Of a stretch of DNA of 64,000 nucleotides, positions 41,719-60,080 are shown in pieces. The notes under the pieces are model-generated. The model did not search any database, was not told the origin of the DNA, and saw only the letters and a program-made list of their open reading frames with translations. The stretch spans positions 28,106 through 92,105 of the forward strand of contig WVZL01000025.1 of NCBI GenBank assembly GCA_011772495.1, written 5' to 3'. Origin of the DNA: Candidatus Aminicenantota bacterium. GTDB lineage: Bacteria > Acidobacteriota > Aminicenantia > Aminicenantales > Aminicenantaceae. Each line of letters starts with the position of its first letter. Position 1 is the stretch's first letter. A program made the position numbers and the translations under genes.

Positions 41719-44700
41719 ATGAAAAAAATTCTTTTTATCATCAGCATTTTAATTTTAGGTTCGAACTTTATTTATACTATTGACGACTGTAAGCTCCTCC
41801 GCCAGCCGGATGTATGCAGTAAAGGCATTGTTTTTTCCTACGGAGGAGACCTCTGGATAGTGGGGAGAGAAGGTGGCGATGCCCGCCGGCTCACCTCTCA
41901 TATCGGATTTGAATTTTCCCCAAAAATATCGCCTGATGAGAAATGGGTTGCTTTCTCTGGAGAGTATGACGGAAACATGGATGTCTACCTCATTCCTCTT
42001 GAAGGCGGAGCCCCAAAACGACTCACCTTTCATCCAGGTTCTGATTTTGTGGTCGAATGGACTCCCGACAGCCGAAACATCGTTTTTAGCACACCGCGAA
42101 TAAGCTACCAGCGGTTTTTAAAATTTTTTAAAGTGGACATCGAAGGAGGCTTTCCCGAACCTCTTCTCCTCCCCATGGCTTACCTAGGCTCATACTCCGC
42201 TGACGGATCACATATGGCCTATACTCCGCTGCCCAATGCCTTCAACACCTGGAAACGATACCGAGGAGGACTGGCCCCCCACATCTGGATCTTCAGCTTT
42301 AAAGACTACTCAACCAAAGAAATCCCTCACGGAGACGCCAACAACACTTATCCCATGTGGTTGGGAAATAAGGTCTATTTCCTCTCTGATAGAGAAGGGA
42401 TCATGAATCTTTTTTCTTACGACACGAAAAAAGAGACAGTGGAGCAGGTCACCGACCTAAAAACATTCGATATCAAGAGCGCCTCGGCTGGGGATGGAGC
42501 GATTGTCTACGAATGGGCTGGTGAAATTCACCTTCATGAGCCTTCCTCCGGAAAATCATCCAAAGTCATTGTCAACGTGCCCAGTGATTTGATCAACGTC
42601 CGTCCTCGGTTTGAAAAAGCAGAAAGACAAATCTTGAATTATGACCTTTCCCCTACCGGCGTTAGAGCTGTGTTTGAAGCCCACGGAGAAATTTTAACTG
42701 TGCCCGCCAAGAAAGGGGACATCCGCAACTTGACGAACAGCCCAGCCTTTTGTGATAGAGACCCTTCCTGGTCTCCAGATGGTCAATCCATAGCTTACTT
42801 CTCCGATACCTCCGGAGAATACGCCCTTTATATCGTCGACCAGAAAGCGGCCAGGAATCCGGTGAAGATCACTTTTGACCAGCCATCATTTTATTACTCT
42901 CCGAACTGGTCACCTGATAGTAAAAAGATAGCTTTCACTGACAAACATCTCAACCTTTATTATTTAGATTTAGCGGCAAGAGAACCTGTCTTGATCGATA
43001 CGGATACCTATTCCCATCCTGATAGATCTTTAGACCCAGTATGGTCGCCGGACAGCCAATGGATTACCTACACCAAAAGATTGGATAATCATTTCCGAGC
43101 AGTTCATCTCTATTCCCTCGAAAAAGGGAAATCCTATCAAATCACCGACGGCATGAGCGATGCCATATCGCCGGTTTTTGATGCCAGCGGAAAATATCTC
43201 TACTTTGCTGCCAGCACTGATTCTGGTCCCACCAGCGGCTGGCTTGACCTCTCCTCAATCTACCGTCGCGTCTCACGCTCCCTTTACGTCGTGGTTTTAA
43301 GAAAAGACCTCCCTTCTCCACTTGCCCCTGAAAGCGACGAAGAAAAAAAAGAAGAGAAGGAAACTGATGAGGAAAAAGCCAAAAAGTCAAAGAAAAAAGA
43401 GAAAGCCGATGAAGATAAAGAGGAACCAGAGTTTAGAGTTGATCTGGAAAACATAGGCCAGCGCATACTTTCCCTTCCTGTGCCAGCAAGGGATTACAGT
43501 ACCCTTCGCACTGGCGATAAAGGCATTCTCTTTTACCTTGAATCTGTGCCCAATCAACGTGGGTATACTCTCCATCGCTTCGAGATGAAAGAGCGGAAAA
43601 GTGAACCCTTTCTTGAAGGTGTCTTTGCTTACAGTGTCTCCCATGACGGCAAAAAACTCCTCTATTTCAATTTTACGCAAAGGATCTGGGGAATTGTGGA
43701 TACCAAAGGGAAAGTGAAAATCGGGGATGGCAAACTGAACACGGCTGCCATGGAAGTCCGGATCGATCCTAAAGCAGAATGGGAACAGATGCTCAGGGAA
43801 ACCTGGCGCATAAACCGAGATTACTTCTATGACCCGGGGATGCACGGAGTTAACTGGCCGAAGATGTACGAGCGTTATGCTTCCTTTTTACCTTACGTTT
43901 CCCACCGGAGCGACCTCAATTTTCTCATCGCCGAGATGATCGGAGAACTGGTCGTCGGCCATGCTTATGTTGGAGGCGGAGATTACCCTGATCTCGAACG
44001 CATCCCGGGAGGTCTTCTGGGCGCTGATTACGAAATTCAGAACGGCCGCTACCGCTTCAAGAAAATCTACTCTGGCTTAAATTGGAATCCAGATTTAAGA
44101 GCTCCCCTTACCGAACCTGGGGTCGACGTACAAGAGGGAGATTATATCCTGAAAGTCAACGGCCGTGAACTCCTAGCGCCTACCAATATCTACAGCCTAT
44201 TTGAAAAAACAGCCGACAAACAGGTTGTCCTGACCGTCAATTCCGAGCCCGAAGAAAAAGGGGCTCGAGAAGTGACTGTGGTTCCGATTCAGAACGAGAC
44301 AGGCCTCCGGAACAGGGCCTGGGTCGAGGGCAACCTCAAGCGCGTGGATGAGCTCTCTGACGGTAAGGTCGGTTACGTTTATCTTCCCAACACGGCTGGG
44401 GCAGGGTACACTTATTTTAACCGCTATTTCTTCGCCCAACTCCAGAAAGATGCCCTAGTCGTCGACGAGCGCTTTAACGGTGGTGGTTATGCAGCCGATT
44501 ATATCATCGATTTACTCGACCGGCCTCTCTTAAGCTACTGGGCAACTCGAGACGGAAAAGATTTCCCGACTCCGTTGGGCTCAATCTTCGGTCCTAAGGT
44601 CATGATCATCAACGAGTATGCAGGCTCTGGCGGCGATGCTCTTCCTCTGTATTTTCGCCGCCGTGGTATCGGTCTTCTGGTGGGAAAGAAAACCTGGGGT

Positions 44701-44973
44701 GGCCTCATCGGAATCTACGATTACCCTCGTCTTATGGATGGTGGATTTGTTACCGCACCGCGTCTGGCTATCTGGAGTCCGGATGGAGAATGGGAAGTGG
44801 AAAATGTAGGGGTTCCTCCTGATATCGAAGTGGAGATGATTCCTGCCCAAGTGATCGCTGGAAAAGACCCTCAGCTGGAAAAAGCGGTTGAGGTTGTCCT
44901 CAAAGAACTCGAAAAAAAACCTGTACCGAAACCCAAAAGACCAGCCTATCCGGATAAAAGTAAAATTAAATAG
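41719..44973 (+). CDS. Tricorn-protease-like S41 peptidase (beta-propeller + PDZ + C-terminal protease), secreted
   Basis: Signal peptide; WD40/TolB-like repeats (WSPDGQSIAYFSD, WSPDSKKIAFTD); tricorn C1; PDZ; VIDERFNGGG-like VVDERFNGGGYAAD and EYAGSGGDALPLYFR catalytic region. Confidence 0.92.
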   Translation: MKKILFIISILILGSNFIYTIDDCKLLRQPDVCSKGIVFSYGGDLWIVGREGGDARRLTSHIGFEFSPKISPDEKWVAFSGEYDGNMDVYLIPLEGGAPKRLTFHPGSDFVVEWTPDSRNIVFSTPRISYQRFLKFFKVDIEGGFPEPLLLPMAYLGSYSADGSHMAYTPLPNAFNTWKRYRGGLAPHIWIFSFKDYSTKEIPHGDANNTYPMWLGNKVYFLSDREGIMNLFSYDTKKETVEQVTDLKTFDIKSASAGDGAIVYEWAGEIHLHEPSSGKSSKVIVNVPSDLINVRPRFEKAERQILNYDLSPTGVRAVFEAHGEILTVPAKKGDIRNLTNSPAFCDRDPSWSPDGQSIAYFSDTSGEYALYIVDQKAARNPVKITFDQPSFYYSPNWSPDSKKIAFTDKHLNLYYLDLAAREPVLIDTDTYSHPDRSLDPVWSPDSQWITYTKRLDNHFRAVHLYSLEKGKSYQITDGMSDAISPVFDASGKYLYFAASTDSGPTSGWLDLSSIYRRVSRSLYVVVLRKDLPSPLAPESDEEKKEEKETDEEKAKKSKKKEKADEDKEEPEFRVDLENIGQRILSLPVPARDYSTLRTGDKGILFYLESVPNQRGYTLHRFEMKERKSEPFLEGVFAYSVSHDGKKLLYFNFTQRIWGIVDTKGKVKIGDGKLNTAAMEVRIDPKAEWEQMLRETWRINRDYFYDPGMHGVNWPKMYERYASFLPYVSHRSDLNFLIAEMIGELVVGHAYVGGGDYPDLERIPGGLLGADYEIQNGRYRFKKIYSGLNWNPDLRAPLTEPGVDVQEGDYILKVNGRELLAPTNIYSLFEKTADKQVVLTVNSEPEEKGAREVTVVPIQNETGLRNRAWVEGNLKRVDELSDGKVGYVYLPNTAGAGYTYFNRYFFAQLQKDALVVDERFNGGGYAADYIIDLLDRPLLSYWATRDGKDFPTPLGSIFGPKVMIINEYAGSGGDALPLYFRRRGIGLLVGKKTWGGLIGIYDYPRLMDGGFVTAPRLAIWSPDGEWEVENVGVPPDIEVEMIPAQVIAGKDPQLEKAVEVVLKELEKKPVPKPKRPAYPDKSKIK

Positions 44974-44975
44974 AT

Positions 44976-46202
44976 ATGGATATCAGAGTCAACTTCGAGC
45001 GCCTCAAAGGAGATATCGAGAGCCTGGCGCAGATAGGCCGTGATCTAAAGGGAGGAATCACCAGGCCTTCCTACAGTAAAGCTGACCTTATAGCGCAGGA
45101 ATGGCTGAAAGAGAAAATAGAAGCAGCCGGTCTGCTCCTCCGCCAGGATGGAGCAGGAAACATCTTCGCCCGCCTAGAGGGCAAGGGAAAAACAATTATG
45201 GTCGGCTCCCACATCGATACAGTGATCAACGGAGGGATGTTTGACGGCGCGGTGGGAGTCCTTTCTGGGCTCGAGTGTCTAAGGAGAATAAAGGAGGAAA
45301 ACCTAAACCTTTCTAAGCCCTTGGAGCTGGCCTCCTTTGTGGACGAAGAAGGAAATTTGGTGGGAGATTTCCTCGGCAGTCGAGCCTTCATAGGACTTCT
45401 GGAAAGAGAGACTCTAGAAAAAGGGATGACCCAATTCGGAATTCCTTTCACCGATGTCTTGAAGGGAACACAATTCACCATTGACAGCATCATGGAGGCT
45501 CATAAGCAAAGACTCGAGATAGAATCCTTCCTGGAAATCCATATTGAGCAGGGCCCCACGCTGGAAATGGAGAATAAGCCCATAGGAATAGTAGATAGCA
45601 TTGCCGGAAAGCATTACCGGTGGTGCGCCTTTCTCGGAAAAGCAAGTCACTCCGGGACCACTCCCCTAGAACTTCGGCACGATGCCTTCTTAGGCCTGGC
45701 CGACTTTGCCCTGAGAAGCACTCAGCATGTGGCCACTAAACACTATGGAAGCATGGTGACCATAGGGAAAATAAATGTTCACCCTGGAGCCTTCAGTGTA
45801 GTTCCCGGCCAAGTTGATTTTTCTTTCGAATACAGGAGCACCTCCAAGGAAACCCTCGAAGAGCTTGAAAAATCCCTTCTGGCTCTGGCTGAGGATATCG
45901 CTTCCACCAGAGGGCTTGAATTCAAATCAACCGTAGTCGATAAAACAGAGCCAGTTAAGATGTCTCCTCGAATCATCGAAATGATGAAGGAAGAGTGTCA
46001 GAAGCTAGGCTATCCCTTCCTGATGATTCCCAGTGGCGCAGGTCACGATGCCCAGATTATAGCCAGGGAGGCTGAAGTAGGGATGATTTTCATCCCCTGT
46101 GTGGACGGAATCAGCCACTCCCCAGAGGAAATGATCAACTGGAAGGATTTAGAAAAAGGCGCTAACCTGCTCCTAGCAGTACTTTTAAAGCTGGCCGGTT
46201 AA
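44976..46202 (+). CDS. M20-family Zn hydrolase (hydantoinase/carbamoylase, allantoate amidohydrolase-like)
   Basis: GSHIDTVINGGMFDGAVGVLSGLE, DEEGNLVGDFLGSRAF, HIEQGPTLE, SGAGHDAQI. Confidence 0.92.
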   Translation: MDIRVNFERLKGDIESLAQIGRDLKGGITRPSYSKADLIAQEWLKEKIEAAGLLLRQDGAGNIFARLEGKGKTIMVGSHIDTVINGGMFDGAVGVLSGLECLRRIKEENLNLSKPLELASFVDEEGNLVGDFLGSRAFIGLLERETLEKGMTQFGIPFTDVLKGTQFTIDSIMEAHKQRLEIESFLEIHIEQGPTLEMENKPIGIVDSIAGKHYRWCAFLGKASHSGTTPLELRHDAFLGLADFALRSTQHVATKHYGSMVTIGKINVHPGAFSVVPGQVDFSFEYRSTSKETLEELEKSLLALAEDIASTRGLEFKSTVVDKTEPVKMSPRIIEMMKEECQKLGYPFLMIPSGAGHDAQIIAREAEVGMIFIPCVDGISHSPEEMINWKDLEKGANLLLAVLLKLAG

Positions 46203-46806: not shown

Positions 46807-48513
46807 TTGATAAACTCTTCCTTCTTTCCCAAAGCGTATCATGAAAGGAAAAATACCATGAAAAAAAGAAAAATGATTCTTTTTCTCTATTTCATACTTT
46901 CTATGCTCTTGACTTCCTCGCTTACTTACTCTACCTCAACCAAGAAAAAGCCATTGACAGTAGCTGAATCGAGCCATTTCACTGCGACTTCTCGCTATGT
47001 TGAGGTCATAGAATTCATAAGAGAATTGCAGCGGCAGAGCTCTCAAATCAGAGTTGAAACCTTCTGTCAAAGCATCGAAGGAAGAGATGTTCCCCTTCTC
47101 ATCCTCGGGCAGCCTGTCCCCTCCTCTCCCCAGGAGCTGAGGAATGATAAAAGAGGCGTCATCTACATCCAGGCAAACATCCATGCTGGGGAAGTTGAGG
47201 GGAAAGAGGCTTCCCTCATGCTTGCTCGAGATATTCTTCTCAACGAGAAACTTCCCTTTCTTGATAAGCTGGTTATTCTCATCGCACCGATCTTGAATGC
47301 TGACGGCAACGAGAAGATAAGCCCTGAAAACCGACCACGCCAGGCTGGCCCGGAAAAGGGAGTCGGTGTTCGTCACAACGGTCAGAATCTTGATCTGAAC
47401 CGCGACAGCATGAAACTGGAAAGCCCAGAGCTTCAAGGCTTAGTCCGAAACGTTCTGATGCGCTGGGATCCTCTTCTTCTTGTGGATTGTCATACCACGA
47501 ATGGTGTCTATCACGAAGAACCCGTGACCTACTCCTGGCCTCTAAACTCAAATGGCGACACTTCCATCATTGAGTACATGAGAGAGAGCATGCTTCCCTC
47601 GATAAGCACTCGTTTAAAGGACAAATACAACACTCTCTCCATTCCCTATGGGATCTTCATGGACGTCAACAATCCAGAAAAAGGGTGGCGCACTTTTGCC
47701 CCCCAGCCGCGTTTTGTCACCAATTACACGGGCTTAAGAAACCGATTGGCCATCTTGGATGAAAACTATGCTTATGCCGATTACAAAACTAGGGTCTTTG
47801 GTTGTTATCATTTCCTTCTATCCATCCTGGATTACTGCCACGCTCACAAGGATGATATCGCTGCTCTTGTCGTGGCAGCAGACCGGAAGACAATCCAGCG
47901 AGGACTTCATCCTTCTGAGAAAGACGCCTTTGCTGTTGAGTTTGAAATGAAACCTTTAAAGAAGCCGGTCACGGTTCACGGTTGGGAAATGAAGGTCTTT
48001 CCCAGAGAAGGAAGATGGCCTCGAGTTGAAAAGACCGATGTTAAAAGAGTTTTCACTCTTTCCTATTATGCTGATTTTATCTCCAAGAGAACCGTTAAAT
48101 TTCCGTATGCCTATCTTCTTCCTGATCCTATCCCTGAGATCAATGAAAAACTCCTGCAACATGGGATCATGTTAGAGAGGCTTACTCAAGCTGTAGCGTT
48201 GGAAGTGGAATCTTTCCGGATAAAAGAAATCAAGGGAGCGGACAGGCTTTATCAGGGGCATCGTTTGAATGCAGTGAAAGGTGATTACGCCGTCGAACAA
48301 AAAAACTTTCCTGAGGGAACAGTTTTCATAGGCACAGCTCAACCGCTGGGGACTCTGGCTGCTTGCCTCCTTGAGCCTGAGAGCGACGATGGACTTCTGG
48401 TCTGGAATTTCTTTGATCGCTATCTCGTCACTCAATGGCGGGGAGCCCCACGAACCTATCCAGTCTATAAGCTCTTGAAACCGGTGAATATACCCAAAGA
48501 AATGAGGAGATGA
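46807..48513 (+). CDS. M14-family zinc carboxypeptidase, secreted
   Basis: Signal peptide, GRDVPLLILG, IYIQANIHAGEVEGKEA, NADGNE, DLNRD, LVDCHTTNG. ORF start at 46807; ATG at 46858 (MKKRKMILFLY) also plausible. Confidence 0.9.
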   Translation: MINSSFFPKAYHERKNTMKKRKMILFLYFILSMLLTSSLTYSTSTKKKPLTVAESSHFTATSRYVEVIEFIRELQRQSSQIRVETFCQSIEGRDVPLLILGQPVPSSPQELRNDKRGVIYIQANIHAGEVEGKEASLMLARDILLNEKLPFLDKLVILIAPILNADGNEKISPENRPRQAGPEKGVGVRHNGQNLDLNRDSMKLESPELQGLVRNVLMRWDPLLLVDCHTTNGVYHEEPVTYSWPLNSNGDTSIIEYMRESMLPSISTRLKDKYNTLSIPYGIFMDVNNPEKGWRTFAPQPRFVTNYTGLRNRLAILDENYAYADYKTRVFGCYHFLLSILDYCHAHKDDIAALVVAADRKTIQRGLHPSEKDAFAVEFEMKPLKKPVTVHGWEMKVFPREGRWPRVEKTDVKRVFTLSYYADFISKRTVKFPYAYLLPDPIPEINEKLLQHGIMLERLTQAVALEVESFRIKEIKGADRLYQGHRLNAVKGDYAVEQKNFPEGTVFIGTAQPLGTLAACLLEPESDDGLLVWNFFDRYLVTQWRGAPRTYPVYKLLKPVNIPKEMRR

Positions 48514-49335
48514 TTATTTCTTTTTCTTCCTGGAGGCGATAAGGAACTTGCCGCAGTTCTCGCAGACAAAAATATCATTGCTTCCTTCGATGGCAGAACT
48601 CATTCCCGTAGCGATGTTGATATTGCATCCCTGACAAACACCCCCGTCCATTTCAGCCACGGCAAACCCGTATCGTTCCATCAGTCGATCAAACCTAGTC
48701 AACAAGGACTGATCGAGCTCCTCCCGAATGAAATCAGCCTGTTTCTGGATAGCTTTCCGCTTTTCTTTGGAAGCCTTTCTCTTCTTGATCTCAATATCCT
48801 GAAGCTTCTTGAGAAGACTGGCTCGATTGATGATCTTATCCTCTTGGGGAAGCTCCAGCTTAATCTCAGAAAGCACCTTATAGAGTTCTGTTTTGTTCTT
48901 GGCTTCGAAGAGCCTGTGCCTGAATCCAGGCCTCCGCAAGAACTTGGCTAAGCCGGCAAAAAGGTGGTTGAAAAGACCTGGAATGGAAGGATTCCAGATC
49001 ACCAGAATGATCAGATGGACTTCTTTGTTGTCGATAGATTCAAAGTCGATGCCTTTTTTGGACTTGCCGACAGCAACTATCAAATCTCCTCCAGTATTGA
49101 CTCGAGCATGGGGCACAGCCACACCGTGGCCGATCCCAGTTGATTCCAGCCTCTCTCGATCGATAACCCGAGTCAAGAGGAGCGTCTTGTTCTTGATGAG
49201 CTTTTGCTTGGCTAAGATATCCAGCAGTTCTTCGATCCCAGCGACTTTATCCTTTGCTTTAAGGTCGAAGCTGATCTGGGAAGGCTTTAAATAATCGGAG
49301 AAATAAGAGCTTTTAAGAGGAACTTTCCTCTCCAT
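48514..49335 (-). CDS. PTS EIIA (nitrogen/fructose-type) domain fused to C-terminal zinc-ribbon (DUF164/zf-RING_7-like)
   Basis: RLESTGIGHGVAVPHARVNTGG (EIIA His site), coiled region, C-terminal MDGGVCQGCNINIATGMSSAIEGSNDIFVCENCGKFLIASRKKKK. Confidence 0.85.
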   Translation of the reverse strand: MERKVPLKSSYFSDYLKPSQISFDLKAKDKVAGIEELLDILAKQKLIKNKTLLLTRVIDRERLESTGIGHGVAVPHARVNTGGDLIVAVGKSKKGIDFESIDNKEVHLIILVIWNPSIPGLFNHLFAGLAKFLRRPGFRHRLFEAKNKTELYKVLSEIKLELPQEDKIINRASLLKKLQDIEIKKRKASKEKRKAIQKQADFIREELDQSLLTRFDRLMERYGFAVAEMDGGVCQGCNINIATGMSSAIEGSNDIFVCENCGKFLIASRKKKK

Positions 49336-49469: not shown

Positions 49470-50501
49470 TTAGCGGAGGATGAATCCATCTTGGAGAGGG
49501 TCCTCTGGGTCAAACAAGAATTCATGCTGGCCAGTGATATAAGCCGAACCTTCCACTTCAGGAATGATTGCAGGATGAGGTCCAAATTTTTTAGTCTCCA
49601 CGATGCGCCCTGTGAAACGAGTGCCGATAATACTCTCAATGTCGATCTGCTGGTTCAAGGCAATCTTTTGCCTCGCATGCAGGATGGCCAGGCGGCCGCT
49701 GATACCTGTTCCGGTCGGAGAGCGGTCCACTTCTCCTTCGGCAAAGATGCAAACACTACGGCTGTCTGCTCCTTTACTTAAGGGAGGGCAGATGAAAATA
49801 GTCCCATAGAGGAAATTCAAGTCTTTCTCGTAAGGATGAACGATGGGACGGCTGGCCATGACTGCTCTTTTGATAGCCATCCCCTTCTCGATGAAGTCAC
49901 GGAATTTATCAGGCGTACAGGTTAAACCCACTTCCTTGGCTTTGACATAAGCATAGAAAGCACCCCCAAAAGCGATATCATAAGAGATTTTGCCTAATCC
50001 GGGTACTTGAATCCTTTCGTCCAGGGCAAGGACAAAGGAGGGTACATTTTGAAAGGCGACACTTTTTACCCGCCTCCGGGCGACTCTGGCCTGGGCTGTT
50101 ACTAATCCAGCCGGGGTGTCTATCTTAACAGTGGTTGTCGGCGCAGTCATGGGAAGCATTCCCGTTTCCAGGACAACTGTGGCTATGGCGATGATGCCGT
50201 GGCCGCACATAGTGCTGTAGCCTTCATTATGGAAGAATACGACTCCTGTATCAGCTTCAGGAGTGACAGGAGAAGTGAGGATGCATCCGTACATATCTGC
50301 ATGGCCCCGGGGCTCCCACACCAGAGCTGTACGCAGATGGTCTAAGTTTTTCTGGCAGTAGCGGCGCCGAGCAAGAATCGTTTTTCCTGGCAGATCAGGG
50401 AAACCGCTAGTGATAATCCTTAAGGGTTCGCCCTCGGTATGAGCATCAATGGTGGTTATCTTCAGCCATTTCTTAGGAGGCTTCCATTTCTTCTTAGCCA
50501 T
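49470..50501 (-). CDS. Proline racemase-family enzyme, Cys/Thr type: predicted trans-3-hydroxy-L-proline dehydratase
   Basis: First catalytic residue in STMCGHG; second site DRSPTGTG (Thr, where racemases/epimerases have Cys). Confidence 0.85.
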   Translation of the reverse strand: MAKKKWKPPKKWLKITTIDAHTEGEPLRIITSGFPDLPGKTILARRRYCQKNLDHLRTALVWEPRGHADMYGCILTSPVTPEADTGVVFFHNEGYSTMCGHGIIAIATVVLETGMLPMTAPTTTVKIDTPAGLVTAQARVARRRVKSVAFQNVPSFVLALDERIQVPGLGKISYDIAFGGAFYAYVKAKEVGLTCTPDKFRDFIEKGMAIKRAVMASRPIVHPYEKDLNFLYGTIFICPPLSKGADSRSVCIFAEGEVDRSPTGTGISGRLAILHARQKIALNQQIDIESIIGTRFTGRIVETKKFGPHPAIIPEVEGSAYITGQHEFLFDPEDPLQDGFILR

Positions 50502-50728
50502 TTCCCTTCTTCACAATAATAAAGCTCAACTCTAAAGTCAATCCAAACAAAAAGAAAGAGGGCAGTCCAAACAAGATCAGGTCTCTAGAGGCGTGGTAAA
50601 GAGGAATAGTCCATGATTAAATAATGAATCTATAGACCTGGCTTTTTGTTCTCGTTGACTTCGAATTCAGCCCTGCTATAAACTACCAAAATAGAAAAAC
50701 GGATACGAGGAAAGAAACAAGAAAGAAC

Positions 50729-51883
50729 ATGGGTGAGTGGAAAAACACAGCCGACGTTGTCATTGTTGGCGGAGGAATCATGGGAGCCAGCACAGCCTAT
50801 TACCTGGCGAAGCGCGGCCAAAAGGACGTGGTGCTCCTGGAAAAGGACCTTCTGGCCCAAGCCACAACCGGACTGAGTGTGGGGGGAATCCGTCAGCAGT
50901 TTTCGCATCCGGCTAATATCCTTTTATCCCAAGAAACCTTGCGCCTCTTTAAACGCTTCCCAGAAGAGTTCGACACTGACATCGGTTTTCATCAAGTGGG
51001 ATATCTTTTTCTGGCCCAAGAAGAAGAAACCTGGAAAGAATTTTTGGACAATGTCAACCTTCAAAGGAGTTATAAAGTTCCGGTTGAAGTATTGAATCAA
51101 AGAGAAATCAAGGAACGCTGGCCTTACCTGGAGACAGATGATTTAAAGGGAGGTACTTTCTGTGCTGAAGATGGTTATGCTGATCCCTACAGTGTGGCCA
51201 TGGGTCTGGCTAATGTGGCCAGAAAGGATGGAGTATGCATCGAGGAAAAAACAGAATTAACCAGCATCCAGGTTGAAGGAGACAGAATCCAAGGAGTCGA
51301 GACCAATAAAGGCTCCATCTCCACACCGGTCGTCGTCAATGTGGCAGGCCCGTGGAGTGGCAAAGTCGCCAAAATGGCTGGCGTTGACCTTCCAGTAAAA
51401 CCCTACCGCCGTCAAGCCTTCGTGACCACTGCTTTCAAGGATATTCCCAAGCCAATCCCCTTGATCCTTGACTTCGATGTGAGCTTTTACTTTCGAGAAG
51501 AAGGACCTGGAATCCTCATGGGGAGGAGTGACCCGGATGAGCCATCAAGCTTTAGTACTAACGTGGATTGGAATTTTCTAACCAAGGTTACAGAGACGGC
51601 TGTTCTGAGGGCTCCTGTCCTCGAAAAGGCACAAATCAGGCGAGGCTGGGGAGGGCTCTACACCATTTCTCCTGATAACAACCCGATTATCGGGCCTTTG
51701 CCTGGAGTGGAAGGCTTCTATTGCGCCAGCGGTTTCTCAGGCCACGGCTTTCAGCATGGACCTCCGGCTGGGCGCATCCTGAGCGAGCTCATCCTTGATG
51801 GCCAGACCGGCTTTGACCTTACCCCTTTTTCGTATGACCGGTTTAACACAATGAGGAAAATAGTAGAGAAGAGGGTGGTGTGA
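50729..51883 (+). CDS. FAD-dependent amine/amino-acid oxidoreductase (sarcosine oxidase beta / ProDH beta-like)
   Basis: DVVIVGGGIMGASTAYYLAKRG, GLSVGGIRQQFSHP, RRGWGGLYTISPDNNPIIGPLPGVEGFYCASGFSGHGFQHGPPAGR. Confidence 0.88.
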   Translation: MGEWKNTADVVIVGGGIMGASTAYYLAKRGQKDVVLLEKDLLAQATTGLSVGGIRQQFSHPANILLSQETLRLFKRFPEEFDTDIGFHQVGYLFLAQEEETWKEFLDNVNLQRSYKVPVEVLNQREIKERWPYLETDDLKGGTFCAEDGYADPYSVAMGLANVARKDGVCIEEKTELTSIQVEGDRIQGVETNKGSISTPVVVNVAGPWSGKVAKMAGVDLPVKPYRRQAFVTTAFKDIPKPIPLILDFDVSFYFREEGPGILMGRSDPDEPSSFSTNVDWNFLTKVTETAVLRAPVLEKAQIRRGWGGLYTISPDNNPIIGPLPGVEGFYCASGFSGHGFQHGPPAGRILSELILDGQTGFDLTPFSYDRFNTMRKIVEKRVV

Positions 51884-51884
51884 G

Positions 51885-52880
51885 ATGTTTAAATTAAAAA
51901 TCCTTACTAGAGAGGAAGTGCGCCAGCTGGTGACCATGGCCCAGGCCATTGCTGCGGTCAAAGAAGCTTTTCTGCAGCTTTCCGCTGGCAAATCAATCCT
52001 GCCATTGAGGACTCAGGTTCCGGTTGAAAGCCAAGATGGGGTAACTCTTTTTATGCCTGCTTATTTATCCACCAGTGACGCCCTGGGAGCCAAGATCGTC
52101 TCCGTCTTTCCCAAGAACGTGAACAAGGACTTACCCACGATCCATGCTCTCATGGTCCTAGTCAATCCAGAGACCGGACAGCCAGCAGCCGTGATGGACG
52201 GGACCTATCTAACAGCCCTCCGAACAGGAGCTGCCTCTGGTGTGGCTACTGAAATCTTAGCCAGAACCGAGGCTTCTGCGGCAGCTATCATCGGAGCAGG
52301 GATTCAGGGACACACTCAATTGGAAGCTGTGTGTACGGTCCGAACTATCAAAAAAGCCTGGATTTATGACTCCCGGCTTGAAGCTGCTACGGCTTATGCC
52401 AAGGCTATGAAAAAGCAGGGAGGTCCCATTCCGGCTGACATTTCTGTGGCTGACTCAGCAGCTCAAGCTGTCCGAGAAGCTGACATTATCTGTGCAGCAA
52501 CAACATCTACAGAACCGGTATTCGAAGATGAGGACCTCAAGCCAGGGGTACATATAAACGGCATCGGCTCTTACACCCCAGAAATGCATGAAATTCCCTC
52601 CCAGACAGTTGCCCGCTCCAAAGTCATCGTCGATTCCCGTTCAGCCTCTTTGGCTGAGGCCGGTGATTTGATTATCCCTATGAAAGCAGGCTTAATAAAT
52701 GAAGAACACATTCACGGGGAAATCGGAGAGATCGCAGCCGGAAAGATTCCAGCCCGGGAATCTGACGATGAAATCACCTTCTTTAAGTCCGTGGGACTGG
52801 CTGTTCAGGATGTGGCTGTGGGCGAGCTCATCCGGCGCCAAGCTGAGCGGCTTGGCATGGGGAAAGAAGTGGAGATATGA
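51885..52880 (+). CDS. Ornithine cyclodeaminase/mu-crystallin family; predicted delta1-pyrroline-2-carboxylate reductase
   Basis: [83 protein letters not shown]. Confidence 0.88.
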
Positions 52881-52961
52881 TACACTCTTAAGGTTATCAC
52901 GGCATAATAAGTGGATAGATCATAACCAAAGAAAACAAATCAGAAAGAAAAATAAGAAAAC

Positions 52962-53870
52962 ATGAAATCAGGTTTGATATTTGATATCAAAAGATATGCC
53001 ATTCATGACGGACCAGGAATACGCACCACTGTTTTCTTCAAAGGTTGTCCCTTGCAGTGCCCGTGGTGCCATAATCCAGAGGGGCAGGAATCGAATCCCG
53101 AGCTTTCCTTCAACAAGACGAGATGCCTCGAAGGTTGCTCAGAGTGTATAAAGATTTGTCCGCAAGACGCGCTTTCCCGCGTAAATGGCCTTGTTTCCAT
53201 AGACAGAGATAAATGCGATTTATGCGGGGACTGCGCTCCAGCCTGCCCAACCGAAGCCCTTGAAATCATCGGCAGGGAGCTGAGTGTAGAAGAGGTGATG
53301 GAAGAGATCGAGAAAGACAGAGTATTCTTCGAGGAATCTGGCGGCGGAGTGACATTTTCTGGTGGAGAACCCCTGGCGCAGCTTGAATTTTTGAAGGCGG
53401 TACTCGATAAATGCAAGAAAAAGGGTGTTCATACCGTCCTGGACACTTGTGGATACGCCCCTTACGAGGATTTGGAGAAAATCGCAAAAAAAATCAATCT
53501 TTTTCTGTATGATTTTAAATTGCTGGATGATAAAAAACACCAAGAAGCCATGGGAGTATCGAATAAACTCATTATCCAAAATTTAAAGAAACTCTCAGCA
53601 AAGGGCAGCAATATAGTTGTCCGCATCCCGATCATAGAAGGTGTAAACGACACCGATGAAAACATCATTGGGACCGCGAAATTCATAGCCTCTCTACCTG
53701 GAATAAAGGAAATAAGCCTCCTTCCCTATCACAAAGGAGGTCGCCAGAAGTACTCCAGGTTGAACAAAGCCTCCAGGATGGATAAGGTTCTTGCGCCTTC
53801 AAAGGAGAAGATCAAAAAAACAAAGAAAAAATTGGAACGCTATGGTTTTCGGGTTAAAATAGGAGATTAG
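52962..53870 (+). CDS. Glycyl-radical enzyme activating enzyme (radical SAM, with ferredoxin-like insert)
   Basis: DGPGIRTTVFFKGCPLQCPWCHNPE; CSECIKICPQDAL and CDLCGDCAPACPTEAL; TFSGGEPLAQ. Confidence 0.96.
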   Translation: MKSGLIFDIKRYAIHDGPGIRTTVFFKGCPLQCPWCHNPEGQESNPELSFNKTRCLEGCSECIKICPQDALSRVNGLVSIDRDKCDLCGDCAPACPTEALEIIGRELSVEEVMEEIEKDRVFFEESGGGVTFSGGEPLAQLEFLKAVLDKCKKKGVHTVLDTCGYAPYEDLEKIAKKINLFLYDFKLLDDKKHQEAMGVSNKLIIQNLKKLSAKGSNIVVRIPIIEGVNDTDENIIGTAKFIASLPGIKEISLLPYHKGGRQKYSRLNKASRMDKVLAPSKEKIKKTKKKLERYGFRVKIGD

Positions 53871-53874
53871 GGCG

Positions 53875-56238
53875 ATGGAAGAAAGGATAAAAAAACTCAG
53901 GAAGCAGACAATCAGTGCCAAACCTACTCTCTCTTCAGAAAGAGCTGTCCTGATCACAGAATTCTACAAAAGCGCCTTGGCCAACCAGGTCTCTGCTCCT
54001 GTAAGAAGGGCCTTGGCTTTCAAATACTTGCTGGAAAAGAAAAAGATCTCCATCAACGAGGGGGAATTGATCGTGGGAGAGAGAGGACCTGCTCCCAAGG
54101 CCACTCCTACCTATCCCGAGATCACTACCCACAGTCTCATAGACCTTAAGACCCTGAATTCGCGGCAAAAAACATCTTTTTCGGTGAGCGAAAAAATAAA
54201 GAAACTATATCAAGAGGAGATCATTCCTTTCTGGAAAGGAAAATCCATCCGAGATAGAATTTTTGCGGAAATGTCTCCGGAGTGGAAGGATGCTTATGAA
54301 GCGGGAGTTTTCACGGAGTTCATGGAACAGCGAGCGCCAGGCCATACAGTGCTGGACGATAAGATATACAAAAAAGGATTCCTGGATTTCAAAGAAGATA
54401 TCAAAAGAAATCTAAAAAAACTTGACTTTCAGGAAGACCCGGAAGCCTACGAGAAAAGGGAACAGCTGCGAGCCATGGAGATCGCAGCTGAAGCTTTGAT
54501 TCTTTTTGCCGAGCGCCACGCCCAAAAAGCCAGAGCACTGGCCAAGCGGGAGAAAAACCAGAAGAGAAAAGAAGAACTGAGAAGAATTGCCGAGATTTGC
54601 TCGCGTGTTCCTGCCCATGCTCCCCGCGATTTCTGGGAAGCCCTGCAGTATTACTGGTTCGTCCACCTGGGAGTGATCACTGAGCTCAACGGCTGGGATG
54701 CCTTTAATCCTGGAAGACTCGACCAGCATCTCTACCCTTTTTACAAGAAAGGATTGAAGCAAGGGACTCTAACCAAAGAAAAAGCCAAGGAACTGCTGCA
54801 GGCCTTCTGGATTAAATTCAACAACCAGCCAGCTCCCCCAAAGATCGGCGTCACGGCTGAAGAAAGCAGCACCTACACGGATTTTGCCCTGATAAACACA
54901 GGAGGAGTAAAGGCCGATGGCTCGAACGGTGTGAACGAGCTCTCCTACCTCATCCTCGATGTCATCGAAGAAATGAGAATCCTGCAACCGAGTTCAGCTG
55001 TTCAGATCAGCCAGAAGACCCCGCACAGCTTCTTGAAAAGGGCTCTGAAGATCATCAAAACCGGCTTCGGACAGCCATCGATCTTCAACACCGACGTCAT
55101 AGTTCAGGAGTTAGTGAGGCAGGGGAAATCCATCCAAGACGCCCGCAATGGCGGGACCAGTGGCTGTGTGGAAACCGGCGCTTTTGGGAAGGAAAATTAC
55201 AATCTCACCGGGTACTTCAACCTGACTAAGGTGTTGGAGATAACATTAAATAACGGAAAAGACCCGAGAACCAGGAAAAAAATCGGATTGGAAACAGGAG
55301 ACCCGGCCCGATTTAGCACGTTTAACCAGCTCTTTGAGGCCTTCAAGAAACAGGTTAACCATTTTGTGGATATCAAGATTAAAGGAAATAACATCATCGA
55401 GAGACTCTATGCCGAACACATCCCAGCTCCTTTCCTATCACTCCTCATTAACGACTGTATCGCCAAGGGAAAGGATTATCACGATGGCGGAGCTCGATAC
55501 AACACCTCCTATATTCAAGGCGTGGGAATGGGAACCATGACTGATGCCTTGACCGCCATTAAATACAATGTCTATGACAAGAAAATCATAACCATGAAAG
55601 ACATGCTGAAGGCTCTGCAGGAGAACTTCAAGGGTCAGGAGATCATTCGCCAGAGGCTCTTGAATAAAACTCCAAAATACGGAAATGATGATGATTATGC
55701 TGATGAGATCATGAAGTCCATATTTGAAACCTATTTTAAGGCTGTTGATGGAAGACCCAACACCAAAGGCGGCACCTACAGGATAAATCTTCTGCCCACT
55801 ACTGTTCACATCTATTTTGGCCGGGTGGTGGGAGCGACTCCGGATGGTAGAAAAGCCTCAGAACCTCTATCCGAGGGAGTCTCGCCTGTTCAGGGCGCTG
55901 ACCGAAACGGACCGACAGCGGTGATAAAATCAGTGGCCAAGATGGACCATATCAGAACCGGAGGCACGCTCCTCAACCAGAAGTTTACTCCTCATCTGCT
56001 GGCCGATGAGGAAAGAATGGATAAACTGGCTCATCTCATCCGGTCCTATTTCAAACTCGAGGGCCACCATATCCAACTCAATGTTGTCGATGCCCAGACC
56101 CTCCGGGCTGCGCAAAGAAATCCTGAAAAATACAGAGACCTTATCGTGCGGGTGGCGGGTTACAGCGATTATTTCTGCGACCTCAACAAAGACCTTCAGG
56201 ATGAAATCATCTCCCGGACTGAACACCAGGCTTTTTAA
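53875..56238 (+). CDS. hypD: Glycyl radical enzyme, predicted trans-4-hydroxy-L-proline dehydratase
   Basis: Thiyl Cys431 in GGTSGCVETG, glycyl loop RVAGYSDYF; H157, D275, S331, D336, F337, E433, Y447, T642 align at a constant offset with C. difficile HypD active-site residues (numbering from memory). Confidence 0.88.
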   Translation: MEERIKKLRKQTISAKPTLSSERAVLITEFYKSALANQVSAPVRRALAFKYLLEKKKISINEGELIVGERGPAPKATPTYPEITTHSLIDLKTLNSRQKTSFSVSEKIKKLYQEEIIPFWKGKSIRDRIFAEMSPEWKDAYEAGVFTEFMEQRAPGHTVLDDKIYKKGFLDFKEDIKRNLKKLDFQEDPEAYEKREQLRAMEIAAEALILFAERHAQKARALAKREKNQKRKEELRRIAEICSRVPAHAPRDFWEALQYYWFVHLGVITELNGWDAFNPGRLDQHLYPFYKKGLKQGTLTKEKAKELLQAFWIKFNNQPAPPKIGVTAEESSTYTDFALINTGGVKADGSNGVNELSYLILDVIEEMRILQPSSAVQISQKTPHSFLKRALKIIKTGFGQPSIFNTDVIVQELVRQGKSIQDARNGGTSGCVETGAFGKENYNLTGYFNLTKVLEITLNNGKDPRTRKKIGLETGDPARFSTFNQLFEAFKKQVNHFVDIKIKGNNIIERLYAEHIPAPFLSLLINDCIAKGKDYHDGGARYNTSYIQGVGMGTMTDALTAIKYNVYDKKIITMKDMLKALQENFKGQEIIRQRLLNKTPKYGNDDDYADEIMKSIFETYFKAVDGRPNTKGGTYRINLLPTTVHIYFGRVVGATPDGRKASEPLSEGVSPVQGADRNGPTAVIKSVAKMDHIRTGGTLLNQKFTPHLLADEERMDKLAHLIRSYFKLEGHHIQLNVVDAQTLRAAQRNPEKYRDLIVRVAGYSDYFCDLNKDLQDEIISRTEHQAF

Positions 56239-56299: not shown

Positions 56300-57220
56300 T
56301 CAAGAGCCCGTGCCTCTTCCATGGTGCAAAGTCAAAAGGTAGGTTTCTTCGACGCCGGTAAGGTTGACAGCCTTGGTGGCTAGCTCAAGCCCGAAACAAG
56401 CCGCAGTGACAGGGTCCTTCCCTTCCATCAACCTGGCTGCTGTGGCCCCGCAGAAAACATCCCCGCAACCAGTTGTATCCACCACGCTTTCTGCCTCCGA
56501 AGATGCGATCTTTTCTAAGCCTTCAGGAATCATCACTATTCCGCCTTCTTGACCTAAGGTCATAAACACCGCTTTTACACCCAGCTCCATGGCTCTCTTC
56601 CCAAAACGGGCTATTTCCTCCTCATCTGGCAACCGCTGGGGGTGACCGAGCATGGAAGCCACTTCCTGTTTGTTGGCCTGCAAATAGTCAACCCCCTCTA
56701 CCCAGGCTTCCCAATCTGCAAGGGAAACATAGCCCCTAGGCTTCTGGAGCTTTTTGGCCAGGGCTAAGGAATGAATATCTATCCAAGCCGGACAGGAAGC
56801 AGAGTCAGTGATTTTTTTCCAGTCTTTAAGTTCGATATCAAAACCAGAGTTTAAAACGAGAAGGAGCATGCCAAATCCAGGAAGTTCCTTGACAATTTGA
56901 GCAGTACCCAGCGGAGGAACCACGGATTTCAAAACTTCCTCTCGCTCTCCTTTCTCAGGATAATGGAGCTCCACTCGATTTCCAGGACCTGGGACGTACT
57001 GAATGCCTGTTTGATCAAGATGAGACCAGCTCTCAATGATTTCCTTAACCTGAGGAACCAGTTCTGCGCCTAGGTTGGTATAAAGGGAAACCTCCTTCTC
57101 CAAACCGCAGAGGACAGCTGCCTGGTAGAGAACACCTCCTATCCCTTCAAAATTCAATCCTGACTCATAAGATATCAGATCATGAGTTATGGTACCCAAG
57201 AGAGCCGCTCTTTGACTCAC
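56300..57220 (-). CDS. PfkB-family carbohydrate kinase
   Basis: GVLYQAAVLCGLE, VDTTGCGDVFCGATAARLMEG. GTG start at 57220. Confidence 0.87.
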   Translation of the reverse strand: MSQRAALLGTITHDLISYESGLNFEGIGGVLYQAAVLCGLEKEVSLYTNLGAELVPQVKEIIESWSHLDQTGIQYVPGPGNRVELHYPEKGEREEVLKSVVPPLGTAQIVKELPGFGMLLLVLNSGFDIELKDWKKITDSASCPAWIDIHSLALAKKLQKPRGYVSLADWEAWVEGVDYLQANKQEVASMLGHPQRLPDEEEIARFGKRAMELGVKAVFMTLGQEGGIVMIPEGLEKIASSEAESVVDTTGCGDVFCGATAARLMEGKDPVTAACFGLELATKAVNLTGVEETYLLTLHHGRGTGS

Positions 57221-57223
57221 CTC

Positions 57224-57300
57224 GCTAGTCCTCTGTTGATCTCTTTAGTCTTCATTATTAATCTTCACTCGTTAATCGCCCTGTTTGTCAATCTGTTTTT
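57224..57300. repeat. Degenerate 9-bp repeat tract
   Basis: gctagtcct ctgttgatc tctttagtc ttcattatt aatcttcac tcgttaatc gccctgttt gtcaatctg; weak period 9. Confidence 0.4.
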
Positions 57301-57375
57301 CGCTTCACACTCCAGATGGTCGCTTTTGCCTTTATTATGATATATTATTAAGCCCTGAGATGGAAAGCCATAAAC

Positions 57376-58644
57376 ATGGATGAGTTAAAAGCCAAAGCAA
57401 GGGCCTTGATAGATGAATTCAAGGGCAAGAATTATATCTGTGGCCTCGGCTGTTTGGAGAATACCGGAGCGCTGGCAGCATCCCTGGGAAAAAAGGTTCT
57501 TTTCATCACCAACCTTAACCGCAGGAGTCCTGAGGTTTTTCATCAGCTTCTCGATTCTTTAATGCAGGCCAAATTGGACACAGAAGGGCCCTTCCCCTCT
57601 GCTCAGCCGAATTCTCCCCAGGAAGATGTGGAGACCATAAAAGAAGAGATCTTGAGGGCAAAGCCTGATGCTGTGCTGGCCGCCTCTGGCGGCTCAGGAA
57701 TCGATGCTTCCAAAGCTGCCCTAGTCCTGGCGGCGTTGGGCGGCAATATCGAGGATTATTTTGGGATGGGAAGAGTCACTGAAAAGCTTAAAATCTCTGG
57801 AAAAGCGCTTCTCCCCTGCATTGCTGTTCAGACAGCTTCCAGCTCTTCTGCTCATCTTACGAAATACTCCAACATAACAGACCTTAGAACCCATCAGAAA
57901 AAACTCATCGTCGACGAGGCGATTGTGCCTCCCAAAGCTCTTTTCGATTATTCCTTGACCGAATCCATGTCAGCCTCTTTCACCGCGGATGGCGCCTTTG
58001 ACGGCCTGGCCCACTGCCTTGAAGTCTACTACGGAGCCAAACCTGATTCCTACCAAAAAATCGAGGAAATCGCCCTGATAGGCATCGAATTGATTATTGC
58101 CTCTCTGGAAAAAGCAATTGCTGAACCCTTGAACCAGGAGGCCAGAGAAGGTCTTGGTCTGGGGACAGACCTGGGCGGCTATGCCATCATGAAGGGCGGC
58201 ACCAATGGTGCTCACCTCACGAGTTTTTCCTTAGTAGATATTCTCAGTCATGGCCGTGCTTGTGCTCTGCTCAATCCTTACTACACTGTCTTTTTTGCTC
58301 CAGCCATCCAAAAACAGCTCCAAGAATTGGCCAGACTCTTCTCCAAATATGGTCTGATGGAAGAATCACCGAGAAGTCTCCAAGACCAAGAACTCGGCTT
58401 GGTTGTGGCCGAAGCCTTGATCGAGCTGAGCAGACGGGTGAACTTCCCCACAACTCTTGGCGAAATCGAGGGCCTGAGTGATTCCCATATTCAAAAGGCG
58501 CTTCAAGCTGCTAGAAATCCTCAACTGGAGATGAAGCTTCGCGACATGCCCGTTCCTTTAACACCAGACATGGTGGATGAATACATGAAACCAATCCTGG
58601 AAGCCGCAATGGAAGGAGACTTCAGCCGCATAAAAACTCTTTAG
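57376..58644 (+). CDS. Iron-containing alcohol dehydrogenase family
   Basis: AASGGSGIDASKAALVLA, PCIAVQTASSSSAHLTKYSNI, FDGLAHCLEVYYG metal-binding region. Confidence 0.87.
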   Translation: MDELKAKARALIDEFKGKNYICGLGCLENTGALAASLGKKVLFITNLNRRSPEVFHQLLDSLMQAKLDTEGPFPSAQPNSPQEDVETIKEEILRAKPDAVLAASGGSGIDASKAALVLAALGGNIEDYFGMGRVTEKLKISGKALLPCIAVQTASSSSAHLTKYSNITDLRTHQKKLIVDEAIVPPKALFDYSLTESMSASFTADGAFDGLAHCLEVYYGAKPDSYQKIEEIALIGIELIIASLEKAIAEPLNQEAREGLGLGTDLGGYAIMKGGTNGAHLTSFSLVDILSHGRACALLNPYYTVFFAPAIQKQLQELARLFSKYGLMEESPRSLQDQELGLVVAEALIELSRRVNFPTTLGEIEGLSDSHIQKALQAARNPQLEMKLRDMPVPLTPDMVDEYMKPILEAAMEGDFSRIKTL

Positions 58645-58706
58645 AAAGGTAGGTCAACGCGACTGGCTGGCCAGGTGAAAAGAGAGAGGCTGTTTAGCAA
58701 AGATTA

Positions 58707-60080
58707 ATGAAAGAAGTCGACTTTGATTTAGGCCATACCAGCTTCTCCATCAAGGTTCCTGTTCATACCGATATCCTGGCCATGGGAAAAGCGCTCCCCT
58801 TGTCTAATCCTGAGGCCAAGATCTGCCAGGCCCTCAGAAACCCTACGGGCTGCTCTCCGCTTGAATCCCTAGTCCGGAAAAAGCTGGAAAGCAAACCTGA
58901 AGCCAAGGCAGTGGTAGTCATCTCAGACAACACCCGGCCAGTTCCCTATTCAGGCGAATCGGGAATCCTTCTCCCGATTGTTGAGGAAATGATAAAAGCA
59001 GGTCTCGAACCTTCCCGAATTCGAATCCTGGTGGCCACAGGTACGCATCGGGCCATGACAGACGATGAACTGAGAGAAATCATTGATCCGAGGGTGTTTT
59101 CACTGAATCTTCGCATCATCAATCATGACAGTCGTAATTTCAGCGAACTAAAGGCAGTAGGTCGGACTGAACTGGGAGGAGAAATCCTCCTGAACCGCCA
59201 TTATTTAGAAAGTGACCTGAAGATTCTAACCGGACTGGTAGAAAGCCACTTCATGGCCGGGACTTCGGGTGGAAGAAAATCCATCTGCCCCGGAGTTCTG
59301 GCGGAAGAGTCCACCTATGTGCTCCACAGCGGACCGGTCCTGGCTTCCCCCAGAGCAACGAATCTCATCCTAGAAGGAAATCCAGTGCATGAAGAAGCTC
59401 TCCGAGTGGCCAAGATGGCTGGATGTGATATGAACGTCAACGTCACTCTTGATTCCGATTATAGATTGACGGGAATATTTGCCGGCGACCTGGAGAAGGC
59501 CCACCTGGCAGCAGTAGAAAAACTACGGAGCTATGTGGCTATTCCCGCTCAGAAAAAATATGACCTAGTCCTCACTCATACCGGGTATGTGGGAGTCAAT
59601 CATTATCAAGCAGCTAAGGCTGCCGTAGTTGCAGCGCCCTTGATTAAGAGCCAGGGAATCTGTCTCTTAGCCGCTCACCACACTGATCCAGACCCCATAG
59701 GTGGCTCTAATTATAAAAAGATGATGCGTAGGCTTGGAGAATTGGGGACAGACAAATTTATCGATATGATCCTTGATCCTTCCTGGACCTTTGTTCCTGA
59801 ACAGTGGGAAGCGCAGATGTGGACCCGCCTTTTTAGAAGAATTCCTCCTGAGAATCTGATCTATTGTTCCCTGGAAATTCCAAGAGAGGCCTTCTCCTGG
59901 CTGCCTGAAACAGACGCTCGCAGCCTGGTCAAGGGAGCAAAAAAACTTCCAGGATTAGTAGAGAGCTCTCTTGGGATAGCGCTTAAAAAACTGCGCTCTT
60001 CCTTGCCCAGAGAACCTCGGGTCGCCTTCCTTCCCGATGGACCTTACGGCATTCCCGTCCTTGAAGGTAATCAAGTTTAG
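58707..60080 (+). CDS. LarA-like (lactate racemase domain) protein
   Basis: ISDNTRPVPY, VATGTHR, INHDSRN, GLVESHFMAGTSGGRKSICPGV (LarA-type His and Lys). Confidence 0.87.
   Translation: MKEVDFDLGHTSFSIKVPVHTDILAMGKALPLSNPEAKICQALRNPTGCSPLESLVRKKLESKPEAKAVVVISDNTRPVPYSGESGILLPIVEEMIKAGLEPSRIRILVATGTHRAMTDDELREIIDPRVFSLNLRIINHDSRNFSELKAVGRTELGGEILLNRHYLESDLKILTGLVESHFMAGTSGGRKSICPGVLAEESTYVLHSGPVLASPRATNLILEGNPVHEEALRVAKMAGCDMNVNVTLDSDYRLTGIFAGDLEKAHLAAVEKLRSYVAIPAQKKYDLVLTHTGYVGVNHYQAAKAAVVAAPLIKSQGICLLAAHHTDPDPIGGSNYKKMMRRLGELGTDKFIDMILDPSWTFVPEQWEAQMWTRLFRRIPPENLIYCSLEIPREAFSWLPETDARSLVKGAKKLPGLVESSLGIALKKLRSSLPREPRVAFLPDGPYGIPVLEGNQV

Follow-up and report, generated by a model that had tools for sequence, protein, structure and literature searches.

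Can a single bacterial locus serve the anaerobic use of both collagen-type isomers of hydroxyproline, and where would their carbon then go? The question is raised by a block of genes in a 64,000-nucleotide stretch of DNA (the window) from the 3.28-Mb, 88% complete genome of a sediment-type bacterium (Candidatus Aminicenantota, family Aminicenantaceae). A preliminary description of the sequence had named five gene families at 49470-56238 and, in the surrounding region, genes for C25, tricorn-like and M14 peptidases. All five open reading frames are intact and match the profiles of the families named, and the three peptidases are likewise found by family. The features considered here are as follows.

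20592-23453: C25 peptidase with propeptide
41719-44973: tricorn-like peptidase
44976-46202: M20-family gene
46807-48513: M14 peptidase
49470-50501, minus strand: homolog of trans-3-hydroxy-L-proline (t3LHyp) dehydratase (t3HypD), Pro_racemase family (343 aa; Pro_racemase, 378 bits)
50502-50728: divergent intergenic region of 227 bp, as defined by the ORF coordinates
50729-51883, plus strand: FAD-dependent amine/imino-acid oxidoreductase of the DAO fold, predicted L-proline or D-proline dehydrogenase (384 aa; DAO, 268 bits)
51885-52880, plus strand: OCD/mu-crystallin family protein, predicted reductase of Delta1-pyrroline-2-carboxylate (Pyr2C) to L-proline (331 aa; OCD_Mu_crystall, 267 bits)
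52962-53870, plus strand: radical-SAM activase of a glycyl radical enzyme (GRE), HypD type (302 aa)
53875-56238, plus strand: GRE, HypD (787 aa; PFL-like, 794 bits, and Gly_radical, 130 bits)
56300-60080, context: PfkB kinase (minus strand), Fe-ADH (plus strand) and LarA-type protein (plus strand)

On the plus strand, the gaps from DAO to OCD, from OCD to the activase and from the activase to the GRE measure 1, 81 and 4 bp; the four genes thus look like a single operon. G+C content is uniform over the block (0.45-0.51). The t3HypD homolog is encoded divergently across the 227-bp region, in which promoter-like matches are not clearly above those in shuffled sequence and no Rfam family is matched; the counts of the promoter/terminator scan are close to those of the shuffles.

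Judged from sequence, this locus probably allows both hydroxyproline isomers of collagen type to be used anaerobically, through routes that converge on Delta1-pyrroline-5-carboxylate (P5C) and lead to glutamate. In the first branch, the Cys/Thr racemase-family enzyme would convert trans-3-hydroxy-L-proline to Pyr2C, the OCD-family enzyme would reduce Pyr2C to L-proline, and an FAD enzyme (the DAO protein of the window or a proline dehydrogenase, PRODH, encoded elsewhere) would oxidise L-proline to P5C. In the second branch, the radical-SAM activase would set the glycyl radical on HypD, which would dehydrate trans-4-hydroxy-L-proline (t4LHyp) directly to P5C. A P5C dehydrogenase (P5CDH) encoded elsewhere would then oxidise P5C to glutamate, no proC having been found. 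Family identities, catalytic residues, the presence of P5CDH and PRODH genes and the lack of a detectable proC can be read from the sequence, and from these we infer all enzyme activities, co-transcription, the direction of flux and the DAO substrate; collagen would be the source of the hydroxyproline. Several findings count against the pathway: the t3HypD homolog, the OCD protein and the activase each score under their own NCBIfam cut-offs, the PRODH gene elsewhere makes a proline dehydrogenase activity of the DAO protein redundant, DAO-OCD is also present where no t3HypD was detected, and the majority of HypD genes in the class have no t3HypD gene nearby.

Several lines of evidence identify the GRE as HypD, as the preliminary description had proposed. 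It scores 1353 bits against the NCBI HypD equivalog NF043068 (cut-off, 1100; next equivalog, 610), and its best solved relative is Clostridioides difficile HypD (6vxc; 1120 bits, next 591), to which it is 60% identical. All 13 HypD active-site residues checked are kept, including Asp278, Asp339 and the CVE Cys loop; F152, counted among the 13, is mentioned once in PMC7077986. In C. difficile HypD, the residues checked are either essential or in contact with the substrate, and Asp278 and Asp339 are reported to be HypD-specific (PMC7077986). Clustering of the GRE away from HypD had been named as grounds for refutation; in a FastTree tree, the GRE falls into a clade (support 0.98) that contains the C. 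difficile enzyme and HypD homologs from many phyla and excludes glycerol dehydratase as well as further GREs of the class. Its nearest HypD relatives are encoded in MAGs of Candidatus Aminicenantes, and it is the only PFL-like protein detected in the source genome.

HplG reportedly also acts on hydroxyproline (Duan et al., 2022, cited in PMC11528403), and an isomerase supplies its substrate. For the GRE of the window, an HplG identity is highly improbable and was rejected: the HplG score (443 bits) is far under that of HypD (1120 bits), all HypD-specific residues are kept and the GRE lies within the HypD clade. For the activase, the HypD-activase model NF043069 is the top equivalog (411 bits, 14 under the cut-off of 425), and TIGR02494 is matched well over its cut-off (369 bits; cut-off, 174). 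The protein carries CPLQCPWC and ferredoxin-type Cys motifs.

A second GRE, which is a sister of HypD in the tree, is present in two relatives (L171:6625-12851, in G004 C122; L172:700-4322, in G009 C142). No match above 47% identity to it was found among 396 genomes of the phylum, and it is about 40-43% identical to C. difficile HypD. Its Cys loop, GCVSPNCDGK, has Ser in place of the eliminase Glu, and HypD Asp278 is replaced by His. In G004, the gene is preceded by that of a TauE/SafE-type permease and followed by genes for a dedicated activase and a proline-racemase homolog of the Cys/Cys type; a similar TauE/SafE-type permease gene adjoins it in G009.

The minus-strand protein had been described as a Cys/Thr-type racemase homolog of the t3HypD kind, and its sequence agrees. 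The best solved relative is the t3LHyp dehydratase of Thermococcus litoralis (6r76; 482 bits, next 304; 60% identity), the catalytic dyad consists of Cys99 (MCGH) and Thr263 (SPTGTG), and Met98, Tyr183 and Thr265 correspond to Met103, Tyr188 and Thr270 of the T. litoralis enzyme. The change from Cys to Thr is a mark of t3HypD (PMC4113996). Proline racemase and 4-hydroxyproline epimerase were rejected as identities because the second Cys is Thr and because both NCBIfam and PDB comparisons rank t3HypD top. As the protein falls under both NCBIfam t3HypD equivalog cut-offs (NF045511, 403 versus 540 bits; the other, 258 versus 550), it is termed here a t3HypD homolog and not a curated member of t3HypD.

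The OCD protein is likewise in agreement with the preliminary description, which had it as a Pyr2C-reductase homolog: its best solved relative is T. litoralis Pyr2C reductase (6t3e; 304 bits, next 209; 46% identity), and it lies under both NCBIfam Pyr2C-reductase cut-offs (267 versus 322 bits; 149 versus 400). In relatives, OCD genes adjacent to t3HypD genes belong to two distinct lineages, one 53-61% identical to the OCD protein of the window (G010, G011, G013, G024, G025 and G034) and the other about 33-37% identical (G003, G006, G016, G021, G027 and G096), which argues that OCD acts together with t3HypD. The protein might instead be a true ornithine cyclodeaminase that yields proline without proC, the hydroxyproline link being incidental. 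Such a role would suit a source genome in which proC was not found (1 of 60 relatives is over the cut-off), and DAO-OCD, with or without t3HypD, lies beside carbamoyltransferase and amino-acid-kinase genes in seven relatives (G001, G010, G011, G013, G024, G025 and G034; families read on the G024 copy). It is nevertheless improbable, as the best solved relative is a Pyr2C reductase, the score against PRK07589 is only 154 bits (cut-off, 350) and t3HypD pairs with two different OCD lineages. In several relatives, the gene of a protein of about 730 aa without a Pfam match (L211:10209-12392; homologs in L212, L213, L218, L224, L225 and L227) sits between the carbamoyltransferase gene and DAO-OCD.

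The DAO protein, to which the preliminary description had assigned no specific role, has as its closest solved relative 1y56_B of Pyrococcus horikoshii (deposited as sarcosine oxidase; 223 bits, 34% identity), which we take to be an L-proline dehydrogenase beta subunit; unlike in the P. horikoshii system, no alpha subunit gene is adjacent in the window. L-proline is the first choice of substrate, with a confidence of about one half. A serious rival is D-proline dehydrogenase, because DAO-OCD occurs without detected t3HypD and because PRODH is encoded elsewhere. The DAO protein would then oxidise D-proline to Pyr2C, from which OCD would produce L-proline, making DAO-OCD a module for inversion of D-proline (or another cyclic D-imino acid) to L-proline; t3HypD would supply the same Pyr2C pool, and PRODH and P5CDH would complete the breakdown. 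A comparable inversion of D-arginine is described for DauA/DauB. The DAO and OCD genes are adjacent in 22 of the family's genomes, counting the source genome, and no t3HypD was detected in four of these (G020, G030, G032 and G035); the PRODH gene would make a second L-proline dehydrogenase superfluous. As the closest solved relative is 1y56_B, and as the protein scores 31 bits against the NCBIfam D-proline dehydrogenase model (cut-off, 600) and 188 against the SoxB-type subfamily, inversion is possible but the less favored of the two; L-proline oxidation is retained in the scheme above.

The fate of P5C depends on enzymes encoded outside the block. A search for proC elsewhere in the genome had been suggested; profile search of the source genome gave no match to TIGR00112, whereas all 14 control genomes matched, an absence that is no proof alone since it rests on a profile search of a genome that is 88% complete. 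ProC seems to be missing throughout the family and order: among 60 relatives, it is over the cut-off in one, and a few others have partial or weak matches. The source genome does encode P5CDH (L122:4823-6457; TIGR01236, 787 bits; cut-off, 613.6) and a Thermus-type PRODH (L120:5773-6666, in G000 C25), the latter a fragment broken by two Ns that resemble a scaffold gap. With proC not found and P5CDH and PRODH genes present, the two isomers probably meet at P5C and proceed to glutamate, and proline is an unlikely end point of the HypD branch. This differs from C. difficile, in which HypD is paired with ProC and the product is proline (PMC9044972). Thus, of the earlier proposal that both isomers are funnelled to proline/P5C, convergence on P5C is probable, while proline is unlikely as the end of the HypD branch.

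Of the 143 genomes of the class, 107 have HypD over the cut-off, 54 have a match to PF05544 and 52 match both. In eight of these 52 genomes (G000, G003, G006, G021, G039, G053, G107 and G108; the racemase-family gene is fragmentary in G003 and G039), the HypD and t3HypD genes share a contig and are no more than about 7 kb apart, a lower bound given the fragmented contigs, and one drawn from non-independent genomes. Most HypD genes of the class lie away from t3HypD. Across phyla, a racemase-family gene is found in the flanks of 8 of 80 HypD loci; among the 34 loci whose flanks each span 5 kb or more, 4 have one. The two genes are near each other in at least five gene arrangements, as follows.

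Window (G000): t3HypD divergent from DAO-OCD-activase-HypD
G021 and G003: t3HypD-OCD divergent from activase-HypD-LarA
G053, and G039 with a GntR gene in between: t3HypD divergent from activase-HypD-aminopeptidase P
G107 and G108: GntR-activase-HypD-aminopeptidase P-t3HypD-OCD
L071, Zixibacteria: activase-HypD-t3HypD-OCD
L048 (Caldithrix) and L052: activase-HypD-aminopeptidase P, then t3HypD-OCD

The preliminary description had suggested that such co-location may be unusual. This is true of the gene order in the window, which is seen only in the source genome; co-location itself is a recurrent minority pattern in the class and in other phyla. A chance rearrangement without shared function would account for the unique order and for G012, in which a single contig carries the three modules at great distances from one another. 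It is unlikely, however, because an arithmetic estimate for 52 genomes with a size of about 3 Mb predicts 0.2-0.3 pairs as close as about 7 kb, whereas eight were seen, in varied gene orders, and because further loci come from Zixibacteria, Caldithrix and others. The repeated adjacency of the two hydroxyproline routes in unrelated bacteria points to a real shared function.

HypD often adjoins a Xaa-Pro aminopeptidase gene of the aminopeptidase P type (M24 plus AMP_N), consistent with a supply of residues cleaved from X-Pro/X-Hyp peptides. Such pairs are found at L165:3437-4831, in L164, L166 and L170 and in some 20 loci of the set L002-L080. They occur in Aminicenantes, Caldithrix, Planctomycetota and Bacteroidetes, among others, and a gene for a GntR/FCD regulator frequently accompanies them.

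Besides P. horikoshii 1y56_B, three known systems resemble parts of the locus. The C. difficile HypD/HypD-AE/ProC (P5CR) cluster (Levin, 2017; PMC7077986; PMC9044972) shares the GRE, the activase and the predicted conversion of t4LHyp to P5C; in contrast, the window has no adjacent or detected proC and an attached 3-hydroxyproline route, and its P5C would presumably be oxidised to glutamate and not reduced to proline for Stickland reduction. The T. litoralis t3LHyp dehydratase (6r76/6r77) and Pyr2C reductase (6t3e) are the closest solved relatives of the first two branch-1 enzymes (60 and 46% identity) and share the dyad, whereas the pair in the window is bacterial and linked to an FAD oxidoreductase and HypD. 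The same enzyme pair occurs in bacterial neighborhoods of t3HypD and OCD-type Pyr2C reductase (eLife 2014, PMC4113996), in which the 4-hydroxyproline branch proceeds via cis-4-hydroxy-D-proline with DAAO, DHDPS and ALDH enzymes; in the window, this branch depends on a glycyl radical enzyme.

All enzymes are of known kinds; what is modestly new is how they are combined, the recurrence of this combination and a setting without ProC. More broadly, HypD, t3HypD/Pyr2C reductase and Xaa-Pro aminopeptidase might be a recurrent gene set for anaerobic imino-acid breakdown that came together independently on several occasions in uncultured phyla of sediments and the subsurface, and that would convert both collagen hydroxyprolines to P5C and glutamate without ProC, unlike the clostridial proline route; we consider the chances of this to be evenly balanced. 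If so, hydroxyproline of protein detritus would be a source of carbon, nitrogen and electrons common to uncultured anaerobes (most genomes of this class carry HypD), and P5C would exit to glutamate and not proline. HypD would then matter not only for Stickland fermentation in the gut but also for the turnover of protein in sediments and the subsurface, and there would be a testable tie under anoxia between the two hydroxyproline isomers of collagen.

As relatives hold its parts separately, the cluster was probably assembled locally from three modules joined within the family. The same t3HypD gene (72-74% identical to the window copy) lies beside Fe-ADH and LarA-type genes in G004 (L173), G009 (L174) and G023 (L180), with PfkB in the latter two and a PTS-IIA-type gene on the opposite side; DAO-OCD-activase-HypD is absent there. 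DAO-OCD directly adjoins t3HypD in six relatives and is at times near tricorn-like genes and an amino-acid permease gene (L210 and L214), and HypD-activase is a module apart from both. Two-sided flank synteny and the composition of the block give no sign of a chimeric assembly. Horizontal acquisition of the block was rejected, local rearrangement being more likely given the uniform G+C content and the identities to same-family relatives (HypD up to 78%, t3HypD 74%, DAO 70%, OCD 69%). The minus-strand gene at 48514-49335 of the window encodes a PTS EIIA type-2 domain joined to a C-terminal zinc ribbon, and it lies beside the t3HypD gene in relatives too.
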